Notes under the pieces: model-generated | Databases searched by the model: none | Seen by the model: only the letters and a program-made list of their open reading frames with translations | What the model was told of the DNA's origin: nothing | Source of the DNA: Porphyridium purpureum | Taxonomy: Eukaryota; Rhodophyta; Bangiophyceae; Porphyridiales; Porphyridiaceae | Length of the DNA stretch: 64,000 bases | NCBI GenBank assembly: GCA_008690995.1 | Contig: VRMN01000001.1 | Coordinates: 4,402,001-4,466,000, forward strand | Direction of reading: 5' to 3' | In this document: positions 10,598-44,717 of the stretch, piece by piece | Numbering within the stretch: position 1 is the first letter of the stretch | Layout: every line of letters begins with the position of its first letter | Position numbers and translations under genes: made by a program

Positions 10598-13246
10598 TTA
10601 TTTACCCTGCGCCTTCCGCGAGCCGTTCCCTGTCTTCACGGTGGACGAGTTTTCGCCACCAACAGCTCCCACACCGGGGCCACTGGCCGTGGACGGGCCA
10701 GTCGCACCTTTTTGAGCAGCTCCGGTTCCAGACGAGCCAGCACGCTTTGCTGAACTCGGCGGGACGCGACTGCCCTTGCCACCCGCACCAGATCTCGCCT
10801 TTCCATCGCCAGGGCTCTTCTTCGTGCTACTTGCCCCCGCCGCGCCGGGCAAGTTGCTCGCATGCGCGCCGGCGCTCGGGCCGCTCCGGACGCTTCCGGC
10901 AAGATACTGCTCGTACTCTAGTCGCCCCTTGCTGGCGAGCAAGTACATGAAACGGCGGCGCTCAATTTCGGCCTGGCGCTGCCACTCCGCCGTTTCCAAT
11001 TCTAGCGTGCGAATCATGTTGATCAGTTGCGTACGCTCCGCAGATAGCGCCGCGATCTGCTCTCCCAGCTTCGCTCCAGCCCCGGATGCAGTCACACCTG
11101 ACACCGGCGGTGTGTTTGCAGCAGCAGGACTTTCGGGCGTGTCTGTCGCAGCCGCAGTGGTGCTGGGCGACCCGACTAAGTCCACAGCACTTTCCAAGTT
11201 GATTCCGTCGACCGTGCTTGAGATCATCTCGCCCTTCATGGCGGCAATTTTCATGCGTGCCCGGTCTAACCGACGCCGAGCCTCCAATTCTTTCAACTTG
11301 AAGCTCTCCAGCTCGTCCTCCACAAGTTGGCGAGCGATAGCTTCCTTGTCCAAGCCGCGCTTTGCTTCTTTCAGTTGTACGTCAAGAACGCTTTTCTCGA
11401 GCTCGAGATCGCGTCGCGCATTCATTTCTACATCGAGGCGGTTTCTCAACTCGTCGTTTTCCTTCTTCAGCTTGCGCTTGTGCTTCTCCACCTCCAGCGT
11501 TTCCTTTTCGACTTTGCTTTGCAAGTGAGACCCCTTTGCCGAAGCATTAAGCGTTTCGGCAGAAGGCGAGCCCCGCTCCGTCGACATAACCAATTTGGAC
11601 GCATGTGCGGAGCGCATCGTGGCAACTTCGGAGGCAAGATATGCGGTAACTTCTGCTACGGTACAATTCGACATCATACCCGCTTCGCGCATACGCTCCT
11701 GCAGATCGCTCATGAACTCCTCCACGATGTTCTCACCCCGAGAAAGAAATTTGGACTCATCCTTCAACGCCTTGCTGTTTGAGAGCCTCTTCACCCCAAT
11801 CGTACGGTCTTCACGAATCGCTCGAAGCATCAATTCACGATCCTTGAGGCTCCATGTTTCGTTGTCAGTTTCGTGTTCAGCTGCATAATCCTTCGTGGTC
11901 TCGTCGTGAGCCTTGTCGTCCCGGTTCTCATCTCCAGATTCTTCAGCCTCATCATCTCCGTCGTCATCTGCGCCCGATCCGGCTTTACCGTTGTTCGGCT
12001 GAGATTCCTCGGATTCATCTACAGGTAGAGAAGACGCCGACGAACCGGCATCCGCTTTCTTGACTGATCCTTCGTCAGCATCAGACCCGCCAGACCCATC
12101 GGCGTCTTTCGCATTATCACCGGCTGTCTCATTCGTGCTCGATTTCTTTCCACGCTTATCCCCAGTTTCACCGCTGCCGCTCTCGACGTGTTCGTTTTCA
12201 CCAATCTTGTCGTCTTTCGTACTGCCCGCGAATTCTTCATCCTCCTCTTCGCCGTCTAGTTCTTTCACCATGTCTTCGGTGTTGAACGAGGTAGTTGGGC
12301 TGACGCCGGCATTTGCAGGAGCGCTCTTCGCATCGTTCTCACTACGTTCCGCCGCAGTTGCGGCAGGTGAACGACCGGTGGCACGCGACCCCGGCTTGGT
12401 GGTATTCTGCGCGTCTTCGTCACTGTTACTGCTTGTTTGCTGGGTGTCTGACCGCTTTCGCCCTGAACGAGTTGCGGAACGACCGCGAGACGGCTGTTCG
12501 TCGCCCGACCGCGGGGATTCCTCAGGCTCTCTGCCTTGCTCGACCAGCTTTCCGCGCTTGGCTGGGGTTGAAACATAAGTCGTTGGCAGTTCATTGGGTG
12601 AATCTGAGTTGGGTGCGCGCTTTCGCTTTCTAGTCGATGCAGGAGTACCTCCATCATCTTCGGCGGCCAGCTGGGCACGCAGCGCTGCCAGCGTTGTTCC
12701 TGTCGACACAGTTTGACACAAACTCCATCCCTGAAGGTTGAGCTTTCGCGGGGTGCGAATGCGATATGCGAGGTTGTAGCGCTTCACCATGAGGTCGACA
12801 AACTCATCCGGGGAGGCAAAGCTCTCGACATCTGATTCATCTCCCGTATCGTACTTTGTGCCTGTTCTTGGGTTATACTTTGGAATCCCCATGCTCGGCG
12901 GGGCCGCGCTCTTATGTCCGAGATACAAATCGCGCGCAAACTGGACATTCTGCGCATTTTCCGGGTGCGCATGCGAGTAGATGATGCGCCCGTCCCTGGT
13001 CACGTTCGCCGTGAATGTGTTGCTCTTATGCTTGAACAGAATCTCCTGTCCGTGCTTGAGCAACTGCGCCTGCACGAGGCGCTCCAAGGTGAGTCCATCC
13101 TCCGAGAATTCCTTCTGAGCCGCAGGCTCGCGCGGCGCGTGCGGGGCGCCGCTGCTGCTGTTCTTCGCGGCCACGCTCACCGCTCCACTTCGACCCCTCC
13201 CCACCCTCGACGCACCATCCGATCCATTCTCCTCGTCGCTCCCCAT
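10598..13246 (-). CDS. RAMA-domain protein with long coiled coil
   Basis: 882 aa from the ATG at 13246 (MGSDEENGSD); the upstream part of the frame is low-complexity translated CA repeat and is excluded. Residues about 52-193 match the RAMA domain pattern: LTLERLVQAQLL, HGQEILF, FTANVTRDGRIIY, then after an insertion FASPDEFVDLM and the typical GW...L..LR ending (LQGWSLC, TLAALRAQL). RAMA domains occur in eukaryotic chromatin proteins such as MPND and in bacterial restriction systems, and are thought to sense DNA or its modification. A 300-residue acidic, Ser-rich stretch with basic NLS-like patches follows, then a long Glu/Lys/Arg/Leu coiled coil (about 560-760) and a Gly/Ala/Ser-rich tail. 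A nuclear chromatin-associated role is inferred. Confidence 0.7.
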   Translation of the reverse strand: MGSDEENGSDGASRVGRGRSGAVSVAAKNSSSGAPHAPREPAAQKEFSEDGLTLERLVQAQLLKHGQEILFKHKSNTFTANVTRDGRIIYSHAHPENAQNVQFARDLYLGHKSAAPPSMGIPKYNPRTGTKYDTGDESDVESFASPDEFVDLMVKRYNLAYRIRTPRKLNLQGWSLCQTVSTGTTLAALRAQLAAEDDGGTPASTRKRKRAPNSDSPNELPTTYVSTPAKRGKLVEQGREPEESPRSGDEQPSRGRSATRSGRKRSDTQQTSSNSDEDAQNTTKPGSRATGRSPAATAAERSENDAKSAPANAGVSPTTSFNTEDMVKELDGEEEDEEFAGSTKDDKIGENEHVESGSGETGDKRGKKSSTNETAGDNAKDADGSGGSDADEGSVKKADAGSSASSLPVDESEESQPNNGKAGSGADDDGDDEAEESGDENRDDKAHDETTKDYAAEHETDNETWSLKDRELMLRAIREDRTIGVKRLSNSKALKDESKFLSRGENIVEEFMSDLQERMREAGMMSNCTVAEVTAYLASEVATMRSAHASKLVMSTERGSPSAETLNASAKGSHLQSKVEKETLEVEKHKRKLKKENDELRNRLDVEMNARRDLELEKSVLDVQLKEAKRGLDKEAIARQLVEDELESFKLKELEARRRLDRARMKIAAMKGEMISSTVDGINLESAVDLVGSPSTTAAATDTPESPAAANTPPVSGVTASGAGAKLGEQIAALSAERTQLINMIRTLELETAEWQRQAEIERRRFMYLLASKGRLEYEQYLAGSVRSGPSAGAHASNLPGAAGASSTKKSPGDGKARSGAGGKGSRVPPSSAKRAGSSGTGAAQKGATGPSTASGPGVGAVGGENSSTVKTGNGSRKAQGK

Positions 13247-13341
13247 CGACTCCACACCCACATCCACGCACACGTCCACCACCTTTCCACTCTCCCAAAT
13301 CCCACTCCAAACCACACCATCAAACTCACTCCATATACAAG

Positions 13342-13360
13342 CACACACACACATACACAC
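13342..13360. repeat. CA microsatellite
   Basis: Short interrupted (CA)n tract in the upstream region of the RAMA-domain gene. Confidence 0.9.
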
Positions 13361-13480
13361 ATGCGCCCTTCTCTTCTTCCCCCCCCGCCCACAAAAACGA
13401 TACCTGACCGCCCTTGTCCTTTCCAGGAACAAAACAAAAAACACGACTCGCGACTTCAAACCAAAACGACCTTGCGTCTG

Positions 13481-13486
13481 CTGTAC
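13481..13486. promoter_or_regulatory. GTAC element (CTGTAC) upstream of RAMA gene
   Basis: GCTGTACAC, 235 bp upstream of the minus-strand ATG at 13246. A single copy, so weak on its own. Confidence 0.25.
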
Positions 13487-13495
13487 ACGCCCCAT

Positions 13496-13496
<1 letters not shown>

Positions 13497-13526
<30 letters not shown>
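13497..13526. repeat. (AC)15 microsatellite
   Basis: Uninterrupted run of about 15 AC units between the divergent RAMA-domain and F-box/LRR genes. On the plus strand it could form Z-DNA, but nothing shows that it is functional. Confidence 0.95.
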
Positions 13527-13530
<4 letters not shown>

Positions 13531-13688
13531 CCGCTCCCCCCACTCAAAGTCCCGCCACCTCCGTCTGGTCGCTCTCATACTCAAACAGCCCCGTTTCATC
13601 ACACAAATCAGCGCTTACATCGTTCATGAACCGCGCGCGTGACCAAGCCGGAACTGAACTCTAAGGTATAGTGGGTTCAGTAAGCTGA

Positions 13689-31811: not shown

Positions 31812-32876
31812 CTACGCTTTAATAGCTTCAGGGTACTTGGCCTTGTACGCCTCTGTGGCGGGAATCTCGCCGTCGGCAATCATGCAATGCAATGCCGAAA
31901 CGAGTGCCTCTCTCCAGTCATGGAATTGAACGCCCAGGTGTTGTTTGGTCACCGAGTTGTCGAACAATGGATTTGTGTTCCATGACCTAACGGCTGACGC
32001 TGCGTCTGCCGCAAAGAAGGACAGCAACTTGACGAGGAAGTATGGTGGCTTATGCGATGGGATCTTCGTGTACCCTAGGGAGCCCAGCTCCGCGCGGCAT
32101 ACTTCTGCGATATCCGCGACCCACGCGCTGCCATCAACAACTAAGTAGCGCTGGCCTGGCACGCCATTGGTGATGGCCGATACGTGTGCAGCTCCCACGT
32201 CCTCCACGTCTACCAGCGGCGTACCCACCGGCGGCAGAAATGAAAGTTTGCCTGTGGCAATATTGCCCACGAGTTTCAGCGAGGCGGATACACTGCCCCG
32301 GAAGCGGCCAACCACCAGCGCTGGATTGATGGTACAAAGTTCGAACTGGTTCTCCTTGTTTTCCTTGACAAAGTCCCACGCGGCCTTCTCTGCCAGTGTC
32401 TTGCTTTTGTAATACGGATCTGGGAACACGTCTGACCAATCGTCTGGCCCATTTACATACTCGTTGCTGTTGTGCGAGTGCCAGCCCACGGCAACCAGTG
32501 ACGACGTGAAGATGACGCGCTTGACCGAGGGCTCCTTTGCGGCCGCACGCAACACGCGAAGCGTGCCTTCACGCGCTGGAATCATGAGATCGTCCTCGTT
32601 CTGCACGTTCATGATGACTGGAGACGCTGTGTGCAGGATGTAGGAGACGCCTGTGACCGCCTCAGCCCAGCCCTCATCGCTCGTCAAGTCCGCTTTTACG
32701 AGCTCTACGGGGTACTTTGGGTTTGGATATACTTCTCGAATGGGCCTGCACTTCTCCTCATTCGCCACATCTCGCACCGTACCGCGGACCTGGTACTGCC
32801 CCTGCTCGTGAAGCTGATACAGGATCTCCAGCGCGATGTACCCGGACGCACCGGTGAGCAGCACTTTCTCAACCAT
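31812..32876 (-). CDS. DFR-like extended SDR reductase, copy 1
   Basis: 354 aa from the ATG at 32876. An NAD(P)-dependent extended short-chain dehydrogenase of the dihydroflavonol-4-reductase/cinnamoyl-CoA-reductase group. The Rossmann start is VLLTGASGYIALEIL, with GTVRD as the cofactor-selecting Arg region, VSYILHTASPV, the Ser motif IFTSSLVAVG, and the catalytic YYKSK (Y-x3-K). Fungal and algal members act on varied aldehydes or ketones (for example methylglyoxal or sterol-like substrates), so flavonoid metabolism should not be assumed. A close paralogue lies upstream at 35442-36515 on the same strand, so this is a local duplication. Confidence 0.88.
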   Translation of the reverse strand: MVEKVLLTGASGYIALEILYQLHEQGQYQVRGTVRDVANEEKCRPIREVYPNPKYPVELVKADLTSDEGWAEAVTGVSYILHTASPVIMNVQNEDDLMIPAREGTLRVLRAAAKEPSVKRVIFTSSLVAVGWHSHNSNEYVNGPDDWSDVFPDPYYKSKTLAEKAAWDFVKENKENQFELCTINPALVVGRFRGSVSASLKLVGNIATGKLSFLPPVGTPLVDVEDVGAAHVSAITNGVPGQRYLVVDGSAWVADIAEVCRAELGSLGYTKIPSHKPPYFLVKLLSFFAADAASAVRSWNTNPLFDNSVTKQHLGVQFHDWREALVSALHCMIADGEIPATEAYKAKYPEAIKA

Positions 32877-35441
32877 TCTTCCAATGGCGTGTTGTCCTGC
32901 GGTTCCAGATGCGTTTGCCTTCTTCAACGCACTCTGCTGCTGCTGAACCAGGCACGGACGATCTCATTGTCGTCACGTGTTTTGTATCCGGTCACAGAGA
33001 GGGACATGAGTTAAACACCTGCAACGGGACTTCACATGGCATCTCGAGCAAGAAATGGAATAAATGAATGCGGCCTGTAGTGTGGGGTCTGGCGATCTGT
33101 GGTCGAAAGTACCGCTGCACCCTCGCTTCTCTAGGCCAACCAGCGAGAACGCGCGCAGGCGTCCCAGACACGTGAGGCTTAGGGGTGGGTGAGCGGGTGG
33201 GAGAGCGCGGTGCCGCCACATTGGCATGGCCTGATTTCTGTGGCCGGGGAAAATGAATATCGTGTACAATAGTCGTCATCCAAATTTTGCTGAGAGGCGA
33301 GGTTCAATTGGAATGATCGACTTGACTCACCGCGAGTAAATCCGGGAGTCGCTGACACCGATCTGTCACGACAGAAGCTGGTCGAAACGAAGGAGTGTAA
33401 AGAGCTTGGACAGCGCCGGTCGAATACCTTGTTCTCCGATATTTCGAGGCTTAGCAGTGAGTCCGCGCCTTCGGGCTTCCCGTGCAGCTGGTGTATTGTC
33501 AGAATTTCGTGTGGCAGGAATGTTGGGACAAGGAAATTCATGGCTTCTTTCGATGCAAACAACCTGCCACTCAAGTACTCCCTTCAAGTCTATCATTTCA
33601 CCTTCCATTTATGTACAAAACCAGGCAGTCCGCATGTCGGGCACCCTTCTTAACCTACACTACTTGCAGACGCGCGGTCTGGCGTGTTGCGTATGTGCAA
33701 CTCAAGAGACGTCCAACCTGCGGATGTTCCGATGCGGACCACGTATTATCATTCGACCAGGGCCTGTGATCCTTGTCTCCTGCTATTCACATTCCTCCTG
33801 ATTTTCCTCATCCTGCTCCGGAATCGGCGCTAGAGAAGGCTGGAAGCGAGGCATTCGCTGCGATATGCCTTGAACCGCGACGTCGAAAACTCGGAACTTG
33901 ATCTCAATGTTCTGCGCAGAGCTACTAATACATCTCTCGCTTTCGTATCCGCTACTGCTGCTGCTGCTACTGCTGCTTCGAGTGAAGCACGAGCCGCAGC
34001 CAACTGGCGTAAAACTACCTTGTGAGGTCATCTTCGGCTGCGAATGTATGAAAGAGCTTCACTTGTCAATAGCGACGTAAAGCAGTCAACTTGCTGAGCA
34101 GCCCACTATCGTACCCTTGGGCTGCTGTCGTAACTGTCGGCTTTTCTGGGAACTAATCTACTCCTTTCACCCGGTAGCGTCCGTGACCCGGACGACATTA
34201 TATGCACATCTTCGCGAATCATGGCGTATGAATTATTTTCGTGCAAAGGAGCACTCAACTTGCATCTGTCCCGCCGCCTTGCACAATGGATCGCGAATAC
34301 ATTCGGCGCAGCCACGTCTCAAGATATTGACCTTGCAAGTTTCGATGCGGGGAAAGAATCCACTGACCGCATGAGCTGTCGATAATGAGGCAACGCGCTT
34401 TCTCCAGCATTGTGTCGCACGTGCAGCTTCCGTTCGTACCCTCACGGGCGCTCACTCGTGGTCGAAACGAATGTCGACAGATACGCGTGTAATTAGACGG
34501 CTTTTCAAACCCTCCAGGTCTTCTGGTGTGAGCTGCGGGCGAGTTTCTTCCCCCGCGCCAAGCAACAGCATCAGTTCAGGATTCGTATCAGTGCTTCGAC
34601 ACGCCGCTTTCTACGATGCGTGTTTCTGCGCACCAGAATTCAGGATTCAAATGTCACCAAAGTCCTTGGTGCAGACCACAGCTCTCGTTGCATTAATTGA
34701 AGAACGTCCTCGCTCACGGTTCAACGAGAATCCATCCACTCATCCTGCATTTCGTGAGCTCGCCCTCTCAAGTTTCCGATCAGACGTAAACCGGTTTCGC
34801 GGTTCACTCGGCTACCGCTAACCGTTTTGACGGTCTTGGCCATTTTCGACAGGGACCTTGTGACAAGGGTAAAGGCCATCGGGATCGAGCTGTGAGACAA
34901 ATTCGCGGGCCTTGATTCTGGCCTGCGTCTAAAACAATGAGCGCCAGACCCATGGTTGAGACACCTTCTCGCGATCAGACGCACACTTTCGTTCGCCTTT
35001 TCCACAACGTTTCGGCTTTCATGCGGTTCTCAAGACGGTCATAATTCCCGGGCACGTAGCGCGAGCCAAGTGCAAGCTTCTGCGTTCTACGGCGTGCAGT
35101 GCTTGTTTTGGTCGCCCACCAGCTTCACCGGCGGCTGCCCTTTTGTAAAAGAAGGACGAGCTGCGCAGCGTCAAAATCAAACGTCGAATCATCTTCAGCT
35201 AGAAATCCTTCCCGACGCCGAACCCGTGTTCGAGGACACCGATGACATGCAAGCGCTGAACGCGCCGAAGTGCACAGTATCTTTTACAAGGTGAATGCAC
35301 CAATTGAATTCTTCAGGAACGGCGGGGGGCCCTTATACACTGACCTTCGCCGCCGGACAAGCGACAACAAACGATTCAAAGAAAAACGGCGGGAAAAAAA
35401 AAGAAAGAAAAGAAGCGAACCACACACTTAACACGTCCACA
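32877..35441. other. 2.56 kb gap between the two DFR-like genes
   Basis: No recognisable gene. The composition is less GC-rich than the flanks. An 82-codon minus-strand frame with an ATG at 34031 (stop at 33783) has a Ser run encoded by a CTG/CTA-type trinucleotide repeat (33951-33980 on the plus strand) and an acidic C terminus; it may be a small orphan gene or an exon. Other frames are short and overlapping. I saw no leftover DFR sequence, no transposase and no terminal repeats. Confidence 0.4.
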
Positions 35442-36515
35442 CTACGCCTTGACTAGGTCAGGATACTTCGCCTTATACCCCTCTGTGGCCGGAATCTCTC
35501 CATTTCGGATCAAACAGTGAACAGCGGCAATCACGGCCGCCTTCCAGTCGCGGAACTCGAGACCAAGATCTTGCTCTGTCTTGGAGTGATCGAACATTGG
35601 CTTTTCGCCCCATGTCAAGACCACCGACTTTGCATCCGCGACAAAGAAAGATGCCAGCTTAACCAGCCAAAACGGCGGCTGAAACGAAGGTATTTTTGTG
35701 TACCCAAGAGGTTCAAACTCGGCTCGACATACTGCAATGATGTCGGCGAACCACGCGCTGTCCGCCGCCAAAATATAGCGTTGGCCAGGCACACCTTTCG
35801 TCATGGCAAGTATGTGCGCAGCCCCAACATCCTTCACGTCAACCATACCAATCCCAATAGGGGCAACGAAAGGAAGCGCGCCGGTGACAATGTCGCGCAT
35901 CATGTTCAGAGACGTACCCGCGCTGCCTCGAAACTCGCCAACAACAAGGGCTGGATTAATGGTACAGAGTTCAAACTGGTGATCCTTGTTGTCCTTCACA
36001 AAGTCCCACGCAGCTTTCTCGGCGAGCGTCTTGCTTTTTGTGTAAGCATCCACGTTTGCCGGGACGGACCAGTCGTCGGGCCCGTAGATGCGTTCGTTCT
36101 TATGGTCCGGATGCCCGTATCCGATCGACGCACAGGACGAGGTCAGAATCACGCGCTTGACGGACGGCTCCTTTGCGGCCGCGCGCAAGACGCGCAAAGT
36201 GCCCTCTCGCGCCGGAACAATCAGGTCGTCCTCGTGCTTCACGCGCATGACAAATGGTGACGCCGTGTGCAAGATATACGTCACACCCTTTACTGCTTCC
36301 TCCCATCCCTTGTCACTGCTGAGGTCTGCCTCCACCAGCTCCAACGGGTACCTCGGATTCGGAAAGACCTCTCGCACGGGCTTGCACTTCTTCTCGTTCG
36401 ACGCATCGCGCACCGTTCCTCGCACTTGATACTGGCCTAGCTCTTGCAGCTGGTACAGAATCTCCAGTGCAATAAACCCGGACGCGCCGGTGAGCAGCAC
36501 CTTCTCTGAAGGCAT
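35442..36515 (-). CDS. DFR-like extended SDR reductase, copy 2
   Basis: 357 aa from the ATG at 36515 (MPSEKVLLTGASGF). It has the same architecture as copy 1: VLLTGASGFIALEILYQLQ, GTVRDASNEKKC, VTYILHTASPFVM, LTSSCASIGYG and the catalytic YTKSK. Most of the two proteins align residue for residue without gaps, including a shared tail (GEIPATEGYKAKYP). Differences cluster in the substrate-side loop after the Ser motif (GHPDHKNERIYGPDDW against WHSHNSNEYVNGPDDW in copy 1), so the copies may differ in substrate. The 5' side faces the hydrolase gene, with 227 bp between the divergent starts. Confidence 0.88.
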   Translation of the reverse strand: MPSEKVLLTGASGFIALEILYQLQELGQYQVRGTVRDASNEKKCKPVREVFPNPRYPLELVEADLSSDKGWEEAVKGVTYILHTASPFVMRVKHEDDLIVPAREGTLRVLRAAAKEPSVKRVILTSSCASIGYGHPDHKNERIYGPDDWSVPANVDAYTKSKTLAEKAAWDFVKDNKDHQFELCTINPALVVGEFRGSAGTSLNMMRDIVTGALPFVAPIGIGMVDVKDVGAAHILAMTKGVPGQRYILAADSAWFADIIAVCRAEFEPLGYTKIPSFQPPFWLVKLASFFVADAKSVVLTWGEKPMFDHSKTEQDLGLEFRDWKAAVIAAVHCLIRNGEIPATEGYKAKYPDLVKA

Positions 36516-36742
36516 GTTTCCTCTTTCCCTTCCCGCGTTCCCTTCCGTTCCGCTGCAGATATTTCCCGGTCCACGGTCTACACCGGTCCGACCCACCGGC
36601 CACCAAGTACATCAATTCAAATAATGAGTTAGGAGATTCAGACCGTTGTTATCGGTTTACTGGTTTCCGATACTCCCGGAACGGATAGGGTGAAAGGACC
36701 GACGCGAAACAGAGTCTAACAAAGAGAGATAGTGATAGAGAG

Positions 36743-37976: not shown

Positions 37977-38134
37977 GACCACGCGCAGGAGATGATGCAA
38001 GCCCTGGGGCAGCCGCTGTTCGCTCCCTGCTGTTGAGCGCAGGTGATGATGTTCCACGAACGATGTACGTGACGAGGGCTGCGCTCAGTTCGCTGCTTGT
38101 GCTTTGACCGCGATGCCGGTGCGAAACCTGAGGC

Positions 38135-38156
38135 GGTACAGCGTTGATGCTGTACC
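38135..38156. promoter_or_regulatory. Inverted GTAC pair, perfect 8-bp arms, 6-bp spacer
   Basis: GGTACAGC and GCTGTACC are exact inverted arms around GTTGAT. The pair lies between the small membrane-protein gene (start 37976) and the stop of NUP50. Its upstream position suggests it serves the small gene. Confidence 0.5.
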
Positions 38157-38211
38157 TTTCCGGTGTGTAAACGTGATGGCTGGTGAGGGAGACAAAGCAC
38201 GCGATAGAATT

Positions 38212-39435
38212 TTACTCCTGGGTCGGTTTATCGGCGACCTTCTTGACATCGCTATTCCCAGCTCCTGCTCCAATGAGGCTATTTACGGCGGCCCTGAAGT
38301 TCGACATGTCGTCAGCAGAAGAGAACTTGACGAGGAATGATTTGACCTCGCGCTTTTCGCTCCCGGCCTCGTCCGGGACGCTGTCCACCACCGCGAACCG
38401 CGCCGACTTCTCCGAAGCTTCCACGAGCTTGAAATCCTTCCAGAGCACAAAGTTAAGCACCAGGCGCATGCTGCCTTCCGCGCGCATGATTATACGACTG
38501 ATCTCGGTCTCACTGTTCTCATTCACTTTCAAGGAGCCCACTCCCCGCTCTTTCCAAGCCTTCCCTTCCAATTGATACACCTTAGCACGCGAACGGAAAC
38601 GCTCCACATCCTTCTCTTCCCCGGTGATCACTTCAGCTTCGGGTAGGATGGGTTGGCACGGCCCTATGGGCACTTCCATTTCGGGATTCTCGTCGCCGTC
38701 CGCGCCGGCATTTTCGCCAGCCACCCCTTCAGTTCCTGCCGACTTTGCCGCACCATCCTTGGATGCAGCGCCGAATGTCCACGTGGGAATCGTTCCAGAG
38801 CCCAACCCGCCGGTAGTGCCGCCAAAGCTAAACGTGGCGCCACCGGTGGGAAATGTTGAGGGGGCAGCAGCTCCCGCCGCCTGGGAAGCCAGGCTGCCAA
38901 ATGTGAACGAAGGCGCAGTGCCAAAATTAAACTTTGGTGCTGGGTCGTCGGCTTGAGGTGCGGTGCTTTCTTGCTTGGCGCTAGAACCCTCCGCCGTTTT
39001 GTCTTCCTCCGTACGTTCAGAGTGCTTCTCCTTCGGCTCCGCGTCGTCGCTTTGCTTGTCGTTTTTCTCAGCTTGGTCTGGAGTGGGCAGAGCGGTGTGC
39101 GCTTTTGCCACGGCCTCGTCCGTGGCAGCGGCGGGAGCCGCAGCGGGATCGGAAGCCGCGGCGCTCTGCGCAACGGATGCGAACGGACTTTGCTTCTGAG
39201 CGTCCGCAGCAATCGATGCGAAAGGAGACGGACTTTTTGAGTCTGCCGCGCTCACCGGGGCGTGTCCGCTCGATCGCCTGGCGGCCTTGACAATGCGGCG
39301 CGAGGCGATCACTTCATCTGACGCGCGCTGAAACCCAGTGCCGTTTCTCTCCTCGCCGTCGCGCCCCGCATCGTCCGCTGCCTCGCGCGCCTCGAACGCA
39401 TCCTTTGTCAACTGCTCCTCCGACGCGCGCTTCAT
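38212..39435 (-). CDS. Nucleoporin NUP50-like (RanBP2-type)
   Basis: 407 aa. The N terminus MKRASEEQLTKD, then the EVIASRRIVKAARR region, matches the NUP50 importin-alpha-binding segment (KR..E.ELT....SEEVL..R..KKAKRR). The middle has FG-type repeats (FNFGTAPSFTFG, TFSFGGTTGG, PTWTFGAA), and the C-terminal 130 residues form a Ran-binding domain (FRSRAKVYQLEGKAWKERGVGSLKV, MRLVLNFVLW). NUP50 helps release cargo and recycle importin-alpha at the nuclear basket. RanBP3 is the main alternative, but the N terminus favours NUP50. It is divergent to the NblA-like gene, with 558 bp between starts. Confidence 0.85.
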   Translation of the reverse strand: MKRASEEQLTKDAFEAREAADDAGRDGEERNGTGFQRASDEVIASRRIVKAARRSSGHAPVSAADSKSPSPFASIAADAQKQSPFASVAQSAAASDPAAAPAAATDEAVAKAHTALPTPDQAEKNDKQSDDAEPKEKHSERTEEDKTAEGSSAKQESTAPQADDPAPKFNFGTAPSFTFGSLASQAAGAAAPSTFPTGGATFSFGGTTGGLGSGTIPTWTFGAASKDGAAKSAGTEGVAGENAGADGDENPEMEVPIGPCQPILPEAEVITGEEKDVERFRSRAKVYQLEGKAWKERGVGSLKVNENSETEISRIIMRAEGSMRLVLNFVLWKDFKLVEASEKSARFAVVDSVPDEAGSEKREVKSFLVKFSSADDMSNFRAAVNSLIGAGAGNSDVKKVADKPTQE

Positions 39436-39993
39436 CACGCTGCGTGCCTTCCCGCTCGACTATGCGCAGTCCAAGGCGCTCCAACCCTCACGCCAACCTC
39501 AACCTCTCTCAGTCGCTCTTCGCTCCCGTCTCTCTTACCTGCCGTGCGCTTTCGCGCCCGCGCTGTGGTAACGCGTTAAAAAATGCGTGAAAATAAACTG
39601 TAAGCGCCAACGCCTGTTCCTCCTCGTTTTGAAGTACAGGTTCAGACGGGTGTACAGTTAATTTTAGACATGTGTTCAGTAGACGCGCTGAAAGGTACAG
39701 TGAACTCTTAGTTTATTTATTTTTTCTCAGGAGGTGAAGATCGCAGCGGCTTCTATAGTAAGATGCGTGAGTTTGGTATGAAACGAGATGGAGGGGGAGG
39801 GGGGCAGTGTTTAGTAGTAGTGGGGTTGCGTGCGCGTGGTGCAAGGCTGCAGATGTGGGAGAGGGGAGTGCGGCATTCGAGTGGCTGGCGAGTAGATTTT
39901 TGAAGAGGTGTGTTGAGTGATCGGCGCGTGGCGATTGGATGCGTGGAGAATCACGGCGCGGCAGGGAGAGGTGGGTGCTGCGGCGCAGACAAT
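39436..39993. promoter_or_regulatory. Divergent region of NUP50 and NblA-like gene
   Basis: Holds three GTAC elements: GAAGTACAGG at 39631-39640, GTGTACAGTT near 39650-39659 and GGTACAGTGAAC at 39694-39705. They lie 195-270 bp from the NUP50 start and 290-360 bp from the NblA-like start. A GA/GT-rich tract follows at about 39780-39880. Confidence 0.45.
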
Positions 39994-40617
39994 ATGAGGC
40001 TGGCGTTCTGCTGCGCGAGCGGCGGCTGTGGTAGCCGCCTGCGCGAGCGGACGGCGTGGCAGCCGCGCGCTGCCGGATCCAGCACATGCGCAGATGCGCT
40101 CAGCGCGTGCGCCGCTCGTCGTACGGAGCCTGTATCGCTGCCGTGCTTCGTGCGTCAGAGCGTAAGCTCAAGAGCTCTGCATTTGTGCAGGATAAGTCCA
40201 ACGCCTTTGGGTGGCGATGACAACGAAGATGCCAGCGGAAGCGGACGCGACGGCGACGCAGAGGAGACGAAGGAGACTGATGCCAGTTCTGCAAATCGCG
40301 AGCAGCCAGAAGGCTTAGGGCCAGAGGATCGCGCTGCAACGGGCTTTGGCGAAACCTACAATCCGGCGGAGCTGACGCTGGAACAACAATTGCAGCTCAA
40401 GCGGTACCAGGACGAAATTGCGACCATGCCCCTGGACGACTGTCTTGACATGATTATGGAGATTATGCGTCAATTCTATCGCAAGCAAAACCTCATTTCC
40501 AGCATGCTGAATCAAGACATCGATACGGGGGACGCCGAGATCCCGAACCCGCGCGACTTCATGTCTGAAGCTGCGAGAAAAAAGCTCGAAGAGCAGGAAA
40601 AGCCGGAGGACACCTGA
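39994..40617 (+). CDS. Nuclear-encoded NblA-like protein, plastid-targeted
   Basis: 207 aa from the only usable ATG. The N-terminal 65 residues are basic, Cys/Ala/Ser-rich and nearly free of acid, with an early Phe (MRLAFCCASGG), consistent with a red-algal plastid transit peptide. An acidic, disordered linker (about 70-120) follows. Residues about 123-174 match NblA: NPAELTLEQQLQLKRYQDEI, then MPLDDCLDMIMEIMRQFYRK, with the LTLEQ start, helix turn and the aromatic/basic end of helix 2. A 33-residue charged tail follows. NblA (Ycf18) binds phycobiliproteins and recruits Clp chaperones to dismantle phycobilisomes. In red algae it is known as a plastid gene of about 55-60 codons. The match is by eye over about 45 residues; a generic helical hairpin is the alternative. 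Confidence 0.7.
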   Translation: MRLAFCCASGGCGSRLRERTAWQPRAAGSSTCADALSACAARRTEPVSLPCFVRQSVSSRALHLCRISPTPLGGDDNEDASGSGRDGDAEETKETDASSANREQPEGLGPEDRAATGFGETYNPAELTLEQQLQLKRYQDEIATMPLDDCLDMIMEIMRQFYRKQNLISSMLNQDIDTGDAEIPNPRDFMSEAARKKLEEQEKPEDT

Positions 40618-40891
40618 AGAATCTTTCCGTTTGTGAGTATCGCGCATAGTAAATGAAAAAGCTGGTGAAAAGTAACACAGAGCGCATTCGCTTCCTTAGC
40701 AGATATGTTTCAGTCGACGATTCGCAAGAGCTTACATGACGAATGGTTCGCTTGAGCCATGGGCCCTACCTGTGAGGCTGGAGCATCAGCGTAGAAGCAT
40801 GCATGTGCCCGTGTGCATGTGAGGGTATGCCAAGTACGACTACTCCCAGAATTCAGGCCGTGCGACGCAGGCGCGCAGGTACATGGTTCAC

Positions 40892-41896
40892 TCATCGCGC
40901 AATCTCCTCTGCACCTTCCTCATACTCGTTCCTGGCCTTCCGCACAGCAATAGCACGCTGCACTGTGCGTTTATCAACCTCCATGATGCCTCGCCTCGCG
41001 ATCTGCACCACACGATCTGCACAAAGCAGAATCTCCCCCGGTTCGTGACTAACAATCACCATGGATTTAAATTGCTTCAGCTGCGCAAATAATGCGACCA
41101 TTTCGCGCCGCGTGCGGAAATCAATACCCACAAGGGGCTCGTCCAGCAAAAGTAGCTGCGGTCTTGATTCCCGACAGAGCTGGTTTGCCAGCGCTAATCT
41201 ACGTTGCTGGCCGCCACTGAGCCGGCGCGGATCTGCTCGAAGTGAAATGTTGCTCAGCCCGACTGCTTCCAAAACGGCGCGCACGTTTGCGGGCGTGACA
41301 GAGCGGCAGAAGCACAATTCTTCAAGCACCGTATTCGTGAAAAAAGCACGCCCAGGCTCCTGCAACACAGTACCCACTTTGCCGCGTAGCTCAGCCGTGC
41401 TTTTAACCTGCTCGCCACTGAAATAGATCCAGCCTTCCAGTGGCTCGGCGTACCCGCCGCACAACTTTAACAGTGTGCTTTTGCCACACCCGTTTGCGCC
41501 GATGAGCACGACGAGCTCATTTGGGAAGATCTTCAAGTCCAGCTCGTGAAACAAGTAGTCGTCCAACACACCTCTGACCTGGTATTGCACCTGCCTCAGC
41601 TCAAGCAGCGCGGGCTGCTTAGTAATTTCATCGACGTATGGCTCCGGAGCTGGCCGCGTCTCCTTCCCCAGCCACCATCTCCAGAGGTCACGAAAGCCCC
41701 GGATCGTCCGGGGCTGGTCACCGCGTGCTTTGTCTTCATTGGCACTCCTGCGGATTACCTTCGAACCCAAGCCATATCGCGGCGCTGGCGCACGTTTCTG
41801 ATACTGGATAGGGAGTAGCCGTCGCGCATACCAGCGCTCTCTTCGCGCCGTGAAAGCAGGAGAGTGTGCGAACGCCGCCTGCTCATGAAAGGCCAT
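40892..41896 (-). CDS. Plastid ABC transporter ATPase, ABCI10/11-like
   Basis: 334 aa from the ATG at 41896; the longer frame is rejected because it would overlap the divergent dioxygenase gene. The N-terminal 80 residues are basic and acid-poor (transit-like). The ATPase domain has Walker A GANGCGKST (133-141), the Q loop (VLQEPG), signature LSGGQ (226-230), Walker B LLLLDEP (248-254) and the H-loop VSHEP (282-286). It is a stand-alone nucleotide-binding subunit close to CbiO/ECF-type ATPases and to plant NAP14 (ABCI11), which is linked to plastid transition-metal homeostasis. The membrane partners are not in this window. Its start is only 85 bp from the start of the divergent PHYHD1-like gene. 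Confidence 0.85.
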   Translation of the reverse strand: MAFHEQAAFAHSPAFTARRERWYARRLLPIQYQKRAPAPRYGLGSKVIRRSANEDKARGDQPRTIRGFRDLWRWWLGKETRPAPEPYVDEITKQPALLELRQVQYQVRGVLDDYLFHELDLKIFPNELVVLIGANGCGKSTLLKLCGGYAEPLEGWIYFSGEQVKSTAELRGKVGTVLQEPGRAFFTNTVLEELCFCRSVTPANVRAVLEAVGLSNISLRADPRRLSGGQQRRLALANQLCRESRPQLLLLDEPLVGIDFRTRREMVALFAQLKQFKSMVIVSHEPGEILLCADRVVQIARRGIMEVDKRTVQRAIAVRKARNEYEEGAEEIAR

Positions 41897-41981
41897 CACG
41901 CGCACTCGTCCGTTCAAGAACGCGAACAGTAGATGTGAAAGGTTGGCGGCGACGACTTTAGTCTGACATAGCAGAAGGAGG

Positions 41982-42923
41982 ATGGCAGGGTCAGAAGCAT
42001 GGCGACTGAGCCCCGCAGAAGTGGCACAGTTTGAGCGGGACGGCTTTCTTGTCATTCGAAAGCACGCGAGCGCAGAAGAATGCGACGTGCTTGTGGCGCG
42101 CGCGAAGGAAATCGCAGCGCTGCACAACGTGGCGCGTGACGGCGCAGGGACCTTCGAAACGGCGTCCCGTACGGACCGAAGTCGAGATGCGTATTTTCTG
42201 GGCTCGGCATACACCATGCGAGTCTTTTTTGAACCCGGCGTGTCACCTCTTGCGGCGGAACAATCTGATGAATCTGGGTCGCTGTCAAGAGTGAACAAGA
42301 TTGGACACGCATTGCACGAACTCGACCCCCAGTTTGAGGCATTTTCGTGCAGCAACAAAGTGCAGCAGGTGGTACACAGTCTTGGGCTCACAAGCGCCGT
42401 CATCCCACAGTCGATGTTTATTGTCAAGGCTCCACGCATTGGCGGCGCGGTGAATGTTCATCGTGACTGCACTTTCCTGCGCACCGAGCCTAGAAATACG
42501 TGCTTAGGCCTGTGGTGGGCGCTTGAGCCGGCAACGCGTGACAATGGATGCTTGTGGGTACTTCCTGGCTCGCATGTGGACCCGAACTCGGGAGAACGCA
42601 TTGCAGACCTGCAGTTTGTGCGCGTGTGCGCCTCTGGGAAAAAGGGTGAATACAATGCGGAGCTTGATCGTACTGAGATGCGTGGCTCTGCTAAGCACGC
42701 CGATTCAGATGTGGCTGATGCGGGCTGGGTTGCGCTGGAGTGTGAAAAAGGTGATTTAGTGTTGATTGATGGATCAGTGTTGCACAAGTCGGCTCCCAAC
42801 ACGTCCGAGCGTAGCCGCTGCGCGTACTCAATCCACGTCTTCAATGACACGGAAAGCTCCCGGTGGAGCGATTCGAATTGGCTTCAACGCGATCCTAGGG
42901 CGCCTCGGTTTCGTGCGTTGTGA
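41982..42923 (+). CDS. Phytanoyl-CoA dioxygenase family, PHYHD1-like
   Basis: 313 aa, an Fe(II)/2-oxoglutarate-dependent dioxygenase. The metal ligands are His160 and Asp162 in NVHRDCTF and His268 in VLHKSAPN, and the 2-oxoglutarate-binding Arg is probably Arg279 in RSRCAYSIH. The stretch LGLWWALEPATRDNGCLWVLPGSH is very close to animal PHYHD1. PHYHD1 acts on 2-oxoglutarate, but its physiological substrate is not established. No PTS2 or PTS1 peroxisomal signal is visible (the C terminus is RAL), so it is probably cytosolic. Confidence 0.9.
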   Translation: MAGSEAWRLSPAEVAQFERDGFLVIRKHASAEECDVLVARAKEIAALHNVARDGAGTFETASRTDRSRDAYFLGSAYTMRVFFEPGVSPLAAEQSDESGSLSRVNKIGHALHELDPQFEAFSCSNKVQQVVHSLGLTSAVIPQSMFIVKAPRIGGAVNVHRDCTFLRTEPRNTCLGLWWALEPATRDNGCLWVLPGSHVDPNSGERIADLQFVRVCASGKKGEYNAELDRTEMRGSAKHADSDVADAGWVALECEKGDLVLIDGSVLHKSAPNTSERSRCAYSIHVFNDTESSRWSDSNWLQRDPRAPRFRAL

Positions 42924-42977
42924 AAATTGAGCGTGGGCCAGCGCCCCGAGCCTGTCCGTGGCACAGTTTGCTTAACA

Positions 42978-44717
42978 TTAGACGAGGCCGAGATCTGTCA
43001 GCGAAAGGCGCTGGAGTCGGAATTGAAGAGGTGTCTGGAACGACTTGAGCTGTCTCCACTCGGCCCACGAAAGAATCGAGACCACGGTGCCGCTTCTATT
43101 GCTACGCCCTGTTCGGCCCGCAGCATGTTGGTACTCCTCCATGGTCGGCGCGGCCTGCAACAAAAAGACGTGATCTAGTCCGGCTAGGTCGATCCCGCGA
43201 GTTGAACCGTACGTGGTTAAGAAAATGCGCGCAGCGTTATCTAAGCCGACTGCGTCCTGCGCATACAGTTGCTGGGTGCCTGCCAAAACGGATGTTTGCG
43301 AGTAGTTACCGCTTTCAAAGCCATAAGCCGATGACAAGAGATCGCAATGCTTCCAACCCAGAGAAACAAGATCGGCCTGGACAGACAGGATCGACTCGCT
43401 CGGTTGAAGTACCACAAGACATCGTTTCACCTTAAAATGCATCAGCAGTGAGTGCAACACTGCGATGCGTTGTGACATGTCCGGCTCATCGTCTTCTACT
43501 GGAACGGCAATGTGACATATCTGGTTTGGCATGACAACTTTCAGCATGGGCGGCGACGAAGACGTCATCTCCTCGCTGTTTGCGGTGGAAACGGTTCGCG
43601 GGATTCGATCCATGTCGCGAATGTGCATGATGTTTGCGAAAAGACGCTTAAATGGACGTCCCATGGTGGCAGACGCCGCAATGACCTGCAGACGGCGCTG
43701 CTCAGGCGGTAGGCTACCCTCTGAATATTCCGTCAAATAGTTCAGAATCTGAACGGCCGGGTTCTTGTACAGGTAAAATGAGCTCTTGCTTTTTTCGTGG
43801 CTTGTGGCGTACTTGCTTGGCGCCCGCACCATCCGGTCACACTCGTCAAAAACCGCATATTTGACGCATCGCTTGAGCGCGAAGCGAAAATTGTCGTTTG
43901 TGTCCATCAGCTGAAAAAGCGCTCCGCTCGTCGCGATCAGAATGTGGTCATCAGAAGCAATCCCTCCGCCGTCGTCGATGCCAAAAAGTACTCGCGCAGA
44001 GATTGGCGTCTCGCCAAGCGAACATGAGTTCAGCAACTTGGTACAGACATGATGTATCTGTAAAGCGAGCTCCCGACTTGGGCACAGAATGAGCCCGTAC
44101 CATTTCAAATCAACATCACCGGCGGACACGTGCTGGAGGCGCAAGAGCTGGAGACACAGTGGCAGGAGAAATGCAAGCGTCTTACCACTGCCCGTCTCCG
44201 CATTCATAAATATGCTCTCACCCATGTACACGCTTCGAATGGCGAGCCGTTGGATAGGACTCGGGGCGCGCACTCCGAGCTCTTCCAGCCCATTGCGAAT
44301 GCTTGAGGGCACGCGAACGTCTGCAAAGCAAAGTTCGTCAGCATGCTGGTGAGACGCGTGTGCATCAAACGGATCCGCTGGTTCTTCTGGACGCATGCGC
44401 GGTGGCACAAAAACGCCGTTCGCAGACGTGTCTAGTCGTGGTGGCTCATCTCTTTGCCTGCTGTCGGCGTGCTTTTGCCCCCTGCTGTTCAGTTGTGGCC
44501 GCGCGTTTCCTTTTCGACCGGGCGCCGATCGTGGTTGCGAGTAGCCTTTCCGGGCCCCAGGCTTCCGATTTTCCGAGCCGGATTTGGATTCGCCAGCGAG
44601 TGCCCGCACATCGCAAGACGCCGAGCGACCTCTCGCACCGGGTTGGCCAGAGACATAGGCAATGTGCACGAAGAGAGGCATCAACTCCTTTTCGTAACCC
44701 GCACCAGGCACCGCCAT
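42978..44717 (-). CDS. Divergent DEAD-box RNA helicase
   Basis: 579 aa. The Q motif (PSPIQ), motif I AETGSGKT (173-180), motif Ia PSRELALQ (213-220), motif II DECD (291-294) and SAT are present. In the second domain, motif V is TRGID and motif VI HAAGRTGR, so the usual first Arg of HRxGRxxR is Ala. Motif II reads DECD rather than DEAD. The N-terminal 100 residues are basic and Ser/Arg-rich, either an RNA-binding tail or a targeting peptide. A role in ribosome or organellar RNA metabolism (DDX28-like) is possible but not shown. The protein ends 55 bp from the PHYHD1-like stop (convergent). Confidence 0.85.
   Translation of the reverse strand: MAVPGAGYEKELMPLFVHIAYVSGQPGARGRSASCDVRALAGESKSGSENRKPGARKGYSQPRSAPGRKGNARPQLNSRGQKHADSRQRDEPPRLDTSANGVFVPPRMRPEEPADPFDAHASHQHADELCFADVRVPSSIRNGLEELGVRAPSPIQRLAIRSVYMGESIFMNAETGSGKTLAFLLPLCLQLLRLQHVSAGDVDLKWYGLILCPSRELALQIHHVCTKLLNSCSLGETPISARVLFGIDDGGGIASDDHILIATSGALFQLMDTNDNFRFALKRCVKYAVFDECDRMVRAPSKYATSHEKSKSSFYLYKNPAVQILNYLTEYSEGSLPPEQRRLQVIAASATMGRPFKRLFANIMHIRDMDRIPRTVSTANSEEMTSSSPPMLKVVMPNQICHIAVPVEDDEPDMSQRIAVLHSLLMHFKVKRCLVVLQPSESILSVQADLVSLGWKHCDLLSSAYGFESGNYSQTSVLAGTQQLYAQDAVGLDNAARIFLTTYGSTRGIDLAGLDHVFLLQAAPTMEEYQHAAGRTGRSNRSGTVVSILSWAEWRQLKSFQTPLQFRLQRLSLTDLGLV

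Follow-up and report, generated by a model that had tools for sequence, protein, structure and literature searches.

The locus and its neighbours

At positions 39994-40617 of the window, by which we mean the whole stretch of 64,000 nucleotides that was analysed, an open reading frame on the forward strand translates to 207 residues and a stop, exactly as had been claimed for it. The features on which the following discussion depends are listed here.

39994..40617, + strand: single-ORF coding sequence, 207 codons plus a TGA stop
39994..40191, + strand: residues 1-66, basic, Ser/Ala/Cys-rich, transit-peptide-like, with Phe5 (from composition)
40192..40353, + strand: residues 67-120, acidic linker of low confidence (from composition and pLDDT)
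40369..40515, + strand: NblA domain (PF04485), residues 126-174 (from Pfam, phrog, NCBIfam, PDB and cyanobacterial HMM matches)
40372..40386, + strand: LxxEQ motif of NblA, L127-T-L-E130-Q131 (from conservation in 74 cyanobacterial domains)
40378..40425, + strand: predicted helix 1, residues 129-144 (AlphaFold2, block pLDDT 92-97)
40432..40533, + strand: predicted helix 2, residues 147-180 (AlphaFold2, block pLDDT 97, 96, 94 and then 76 over 171-180)
40510..40512, + strand: Asn173, aligned with Lys53 of Anabaena NblA, 1ojh (from the alignment register)
40516..40614, + strand: residues 175-207, a charged tail of 33 residues in which a short helix is predicted at about 192-201 (from the extension comparison and AlphaFold2)

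The Pfam families found in the neighbours of this frame are RPN2, NUP50/RanBP1, TAFII55, U3_assoc_6, EAP30 and SRF-TF (MADS). Judged by these neighbour genes the contig is eukaryotic nuclear, and the earlier claim of a nuclear gene stands. GC content is 52-62% per 2-kb block of the window, which also holds long single-ORF genes, e.g., RPN2. Both features fit Porphyridium purpureum (55.5% GC, 235 introns; PMC10866757) or Cyanidioschyzon (genes of 54-56% GC; PMC6629376). No tRNA was returned by ARAGORN with the bacterial code and no Rfam match at gathering score, and the three neighbours without a Pfam family had no PDB match at E up to 0.001.

A minus-strand ABC ATPase ORF (40892-42439) has an energy-coupling-factor ATPase model as its best match, though far under cut-off. 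It shares DNA with the 5′ part of a plus-strand PhyH dioxygenase gene (41982-42923), and the true start codon of the ATPase is probably further in than the start of the ORF. Two epimerase/3beta-HSD-like genes are likewise on the minus strand, at 31812-32927 and 35442-36596, and their closest NCBIfam model is HpnA, a hopanoid-associated sugar epimerase, again far under cut-off. The sole match of a 981-residue ORF at 10598-13543 is RAMA, weak and under the Pfam cut-off.

The frame of the 207-residue protein is closed upstream by an in-frame stop at 39901. If no intron is assumed, the ATG at 39994 is the sole in-frame ATG upstream of the NblA domain, as the next one, at 40426, is Met145 within the domain itself; a GTG at 39910 also opens the frame. 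Inside the transit-like region, a 28-bp unit occurs twice in tandem at 40011-40066 with copies 82% alike and, 28 not being a multiple of three, the two copies are read in different frames. An acceptor-like TTTGTGCAG is present at 40182, within the stretch coding for residues 1-66.

The NblA domain and its predicted fold

An NblA pattern near the C terminus was the core of the original prediction, which called for an HMM search of residues 120-175 against the NblA/Ycf18 family. A Pfam search matched NblA (PF04485) to residues 126-174 over profile positions 1-49 of 50 (E 1e-6), with 29.5 bits over a curated cut-off of 25, and no other Pfam family was matched by the protein at E up to 1. The same residues match phrog_23930 (E 4.7e-8) and NCBIfam NF045916 (E 6.7e-6). 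The latter match, at 26.2 bits, is below the equivalog cut-off of 100, and for this reason we do not call the protein an equivalog of the cyanobacterial NblA. In a phmmer search of the PDB with E up to 10, four distinct sequences were obtained and all of them are NblA (3cs5, 2q8v, 2qdo, and 1ojh; E 0.001-0.095). By profile evidence, residues 126-174 are an NblA domain, and the predicted pattern is thereby borne out.

A cyanobacterial sample was assembled from 194 genomes drawn from the phylum, with a match in 78 of them and a match over the cut-off in 76. From 79 loci, 86 matching frames and finally 74 distinct domains were obtained for an HMM, against which the 207-residue protein scored 36.5 bits (E 1.4e-9), whereas none of 5000 shuffles exceeded 7.2 bits. 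No other clear match exists among the 1002 frames of at least 40 codons, read from stop to stop, that the window contains; the next best has 4.7 bits. Profile comparison with 42 of the cyanobacterial domains gave a probability of 96.8 (E 2.8e-10), and a profile of these 42 strongly recovers the same four NblA entries from the PDB. Identity to the 74 domains is 19/48 = 40% at best (L065), 25% in the median and 6/48 at the lowest. In a tree of these domains, the branch to the protein is 2.7 changes per column long and leaves an open fork, from which no origin is claimed. Among the cyanobacterial matches, two (G150:C1:706453-706590 and G186:C1:665048-665182) contain several in-frame stops and are perhaps decayed nblA genes, while eight genomes (L049, L051, L052, L053, L056, L057, L071, and L077) carry paired, adjoining matches on the same strand. 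Such a side-by-side arrangement is known for NblA1/NblA2 pairs.

NblA, a small cyanobacterial protein by which light-harvesting antennae are tagged for degradation, is not known outside organisms with phycobilisomes, so that the source of the window is most likely an intron-poor red alga. Relatives of the full protein were confirmed neither in genomic contigs nor in viral contigs, neither of which is a collection of red algal nuclear or plastid genomes, and the short exact peptide patterns employed in the contig scans restrict this result to close relatives. In tblastn of the full protein against phages, two records of one Lactobacillus phage (E 0.03, residues 32-129) were taken as chance. The domain alone had no match in plasmids; in phages it found seven records at E 2-6, of which four are annotated as Microcystis phage NblA. 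No match in plasmids was obtained with the DNA of 38000-43000 either.

LxxEQ, the motif found close to the domain's N terminus, is intact, and its letters are nearly invariant in the cyanobacterial domains (L127 and E130 each in 73/74, Q131 in 72/74). A conserved N-terminal motif of NblA binds ClpC according to the accessible part of PMC4103541, which does not state the letters of the motif; we take LxxEQ as the ClpC-side motif on account of its conservation. Gln160 and Asn166 are kept, the same letters occurring in 55 and 53 of the 74 domains, and so is the basic residue at position 164, which is Lys here and K or R in 69/74. Position 133, occupied by Phe in 70/74, is Leu in the 207-residue protein.

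A feature unanticipated by the original prediction is Asn173, which falls on Lys53 of 1ojh in the register of the PDB phmmer match as well as in that of the 42-domain profile. The column contains K in 56 of the 74 cyanobacterial domains, R in 7, Q in 4, a gap in 7 and Asn in none, i.e., a basic residue in 63 of the 67 rows with a letter. Helix 2 thus ends without this basic residue, which is not strictly invariant among the 74 domains either. Lys53 of Anabaena NblA we take to be part of phycobilisome binding; no paper on the roles of Leu51 and Lys53 was found in a literature search.

AlphaFold2 models were computed for the whole protein with the 42 domains as alignment (overall pLDDT 68, pTM 0.37) and for residues 121-207 with 31 domains (pLDDT 86.7, pTM 0.46). 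Both predict much the same helices, the second of which covers residues 147-176 in the shorter model. In the full model, block pLDDT is 92-97 over residues 121-170, 76 over 171-180 and 39-66 before the domain (39-55 over residues 1-66 and 41-66 in the linker). The tail helix at 192-201 has blocks of 93 and 87 in the full model, and the tail is predicted less confidently in the shorter one (74, 86, and 74). Foldseek against the PDB found no match for either model, and 17 viral matches of the shorter model, all with E of at least 0.56, were taken as chance. In the comparison of folds that had been proposed, a helix-loop-helix is thus predicted but a Foldseek match in the PDB is absent for both models, and the tie to the NblA fold is one of sequence and predicted secondary structure.

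Added regions and codon evidence

The protein has 125 residues ahead of the domain and 33 past its Pfam end (34 if counted as in the cyanobacterial rows). For comparison, 72 of the 74 distinct cyanobacterial NblAs were considered with the nearest ATG as start, two of less than 44 residues being dropped; in these, the nearest ATG precedes the domain by 1-10 residues (median 5), and a tail of 0-18 residues (median 6) follows it. With the nearest ATG as start, both the N-terminal extension and the tail are longer than in all 72, in support of the claim that these regions were added, while with the farthest possible start one cyanobacterial NblA reaches 98 residues. The tail at residues 175-207 is as it had been described. 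So is the acidic linker, with 15 D/E vs. 4 R/K in the 54 residues from 67 to 120. At 207 residues the protein departs from the small size of about 55-65 residues typical of the family. We hold that its length and extensions describe a variant of NblA, the domain of which is still within the family.

Codon scoring was trained on the 17 genes of the window itself, and each segment was compared with windows of the same length from real genes and from shadow frames. Total codon content is gene-like for the linker (0.21), the domain (0.27) and the tail (0.31), with none of 895, 880 and 1550 shadow windows, respectively, scoring above. Their synonymous choice exceeds that of 38/179, 134/176 and 100/310 real windows, with 207/895, 25/880 and 359/1550 shadow windows above. 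Residues 1-66 behave differently: their total codon content of −0.13 is below all 145 real windows and 210/725 shadow windows exceed it, while their synonymous choice is at the real-gene median (71/145 real windows below, 57/725 shadow windows above).

The original prediction described the N terminus as transit-like. Composition agrees, since residues 1-66 contain 10 R/K against 3 D/E, together with 12 S/T, 11 A, and 7 C; total codon content speaks against it. A transit peptide would be in keeping with this odd amino-acid make-up and ordinary codon choice, but is not proven by them. The 28 codons upstream of the ATG (total 0.07, with 88/356 real windows below; synonymous choice with 291/356 below) look no less gene-like than the codons after it. 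The low score of residues 1-66 and these gene-like upstream codons make the start at 39994 a tentative one.

A probable second nuclear NblA in red algae

The novelty attributed to a nuclear red-algal NblA does not hold, as one has been in print since 2013. According to the accessible part of PMC3594237, the nuclear genome of Pyropia yezoensis contains a second NblA (gene g3612), which is distinct from the plastid Ycf18, has two exons, is expressed and spliced, and is not predicted there to be plastid-located. A literature search on NblA in red algae, in which the papers were partly checked inside, gave no further report of a nuclear red-algal NblA among the matches listed. The ORF at 39994-40617 is most likely the second such case. 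It resembles g3612 in being a nucleus-encoded, probably red-algal homolog distinct from plastid Ycf18, and in a GC content like that of the nuclear genome; unlike g3612, with its two exons and no predicted plastid location, it is one ORF. With the cyanobacterial proteins (1ojh, 3cs5, 2q8v, and 2qdo) it shares a domain of about 48 residues, LxxEQ and a helix-loop-helix that is predicted here, whereas the 125 residues before the domain, the 33-residue tail, Asn at the Lys53 position and an identity of at most 40% set it apart. Ycf18, the red algal plastid NblA, belongs to the same family by name and literature and, unlike this nuclear ORF, is plastid-encoded.

On balance, we find it probable that the gene encodes a second, nuclear NblA, which is imported into the plastid and feeds phycobilisome proteins to ClpC, perhaps together with Ycf18. 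A precursor of 207 residues would be made in the cytosol and directed into the plastid by its basic N-terminal stretch (about residues 1-66). In the mature protein, an acidic, flexible linker would be followed by the predicted helix-loop-helix of NblA. By analogy with NblA, the LxxEQ end of helix 1 may dock on plastid ClpC (the accessible part of PMC5217408 gives clpC among the genes of a red algal plastid), while the end of helix 2 may touch phycobiliproteins, so that phycobilisome subunits would be passed to the Clp protease. The NblA domain with its intact LxxEQ, the nuclear context, the precedent in Pyropia, a total codon content that is gene-like from the linker onwards and the gene-like synonymous choice of the N-terminal codons argue for this account. 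Against it count Asn173 and Leu133, the NCBIfam score under the equivalog cut-off, the absence of PDB matches in Foldseek, the codon evidence around the start, and the Pyropia nuclear NblA for which no plastid location was predicted.

With Lys53 replaced by Asn, pairing with Ycf18 may be how the protein works best, and one might speculate that it functions as such a pair in the manner of NblA1 and NblA2, which reportedly form a heterodimer in Synechocystis, if the title of a reference is to be trusted. Such pairing could make antenna breakdown dependent on both genomes. In its strictest version, the nuclear protein would be the ClpC-docking half with a regulated linker and tail, Ycf18 the phycobilisome-binding half, and the mixed pair alone would start breakdown; this two-genome switch we regard as unlikely. 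If true, it would explain why Ycf18 expression, taken by itself, fails to follow bleaching in red algae.

Red algal NblA may not have the role known from cyanobacteria, as expression of the Cyanidioschyzon NblA CMV052C drops when nitrogen is depleted (PMC9794624, in the part accessible) and nitrogen loss does not induce Pyropia Ycf18 (PMC3594237, likewise). The protein could also have kept the NblA fold and changed its job, either by acting as plastid ClpC adaptor on a different substrate or by competing with Ycf18 and blocking it, which we consider possible, if rather doubtful. This reading draws on the survival of the presumed ClpC-side motif alongside the loss of the basic residue towards the other end: LxxEQ is intact, yet K/R at the Lys53 position has become Asn and Phe at position 133 has become Leu, the branch is very long (see above), and linker and tail have been added. 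It is weakened by the retention of Gln160, Lys164, and Asn166, by a role of Lys53 that is presumed here, and by the weak evidence that one substitution in a 50-residue domain can provide. The loss of the basic residue at 173 beside an intact LxxEQ makes both a Ycf18 partnership and a changed substrate worth testing.

A functional transfer, in which the plastid ycf18 was lost and the nuclear copy replaces the only NblA gene, would agree with the transit-like N terminus in a nuclear context, but is quite improbable. In the accessible part of PMC4810238, nblA/ycf18 shares its red algal plastid distribution with apcA, cpcA and other phycobilisome genes, and Pyropia yezoensis keeps both the plastid Ycf18 and the nuclear NblA in the corresponding part of PMC3594237; on these grounds a second nuclear NblA is likelier than gene transfer. 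There is an equally slim chance that the ORF is plastid or cyanobacterial DNA decaying after insertion into the nucleus, or that the gene model is wrong, an intron having gone undetected or the start lying elsewhere. The low total codon content of the N-terminal 66 codons, the tandem repeat within them and the acceptor-like sequence all point that way. Against it stand the open frame of the domain, the gene-like total codon content from linker to tail, the synonymous choice of residues 1-66 at the real-gene median, and the intact state of the most conserved NblA residues.

We therefore return to a second, plastid-imported nuclear NblA as the preferred reading. A nuclear NblA with added regions, in what is probably a second red alga, agrees with the suggestion made in 2013, in the accessible part of PMC3594237, that the nuclear copy takes part in dismantling of the phycobilisome, and the ORF at 39994-40617 is a gene to delete and tag for the study of this process in red algae.
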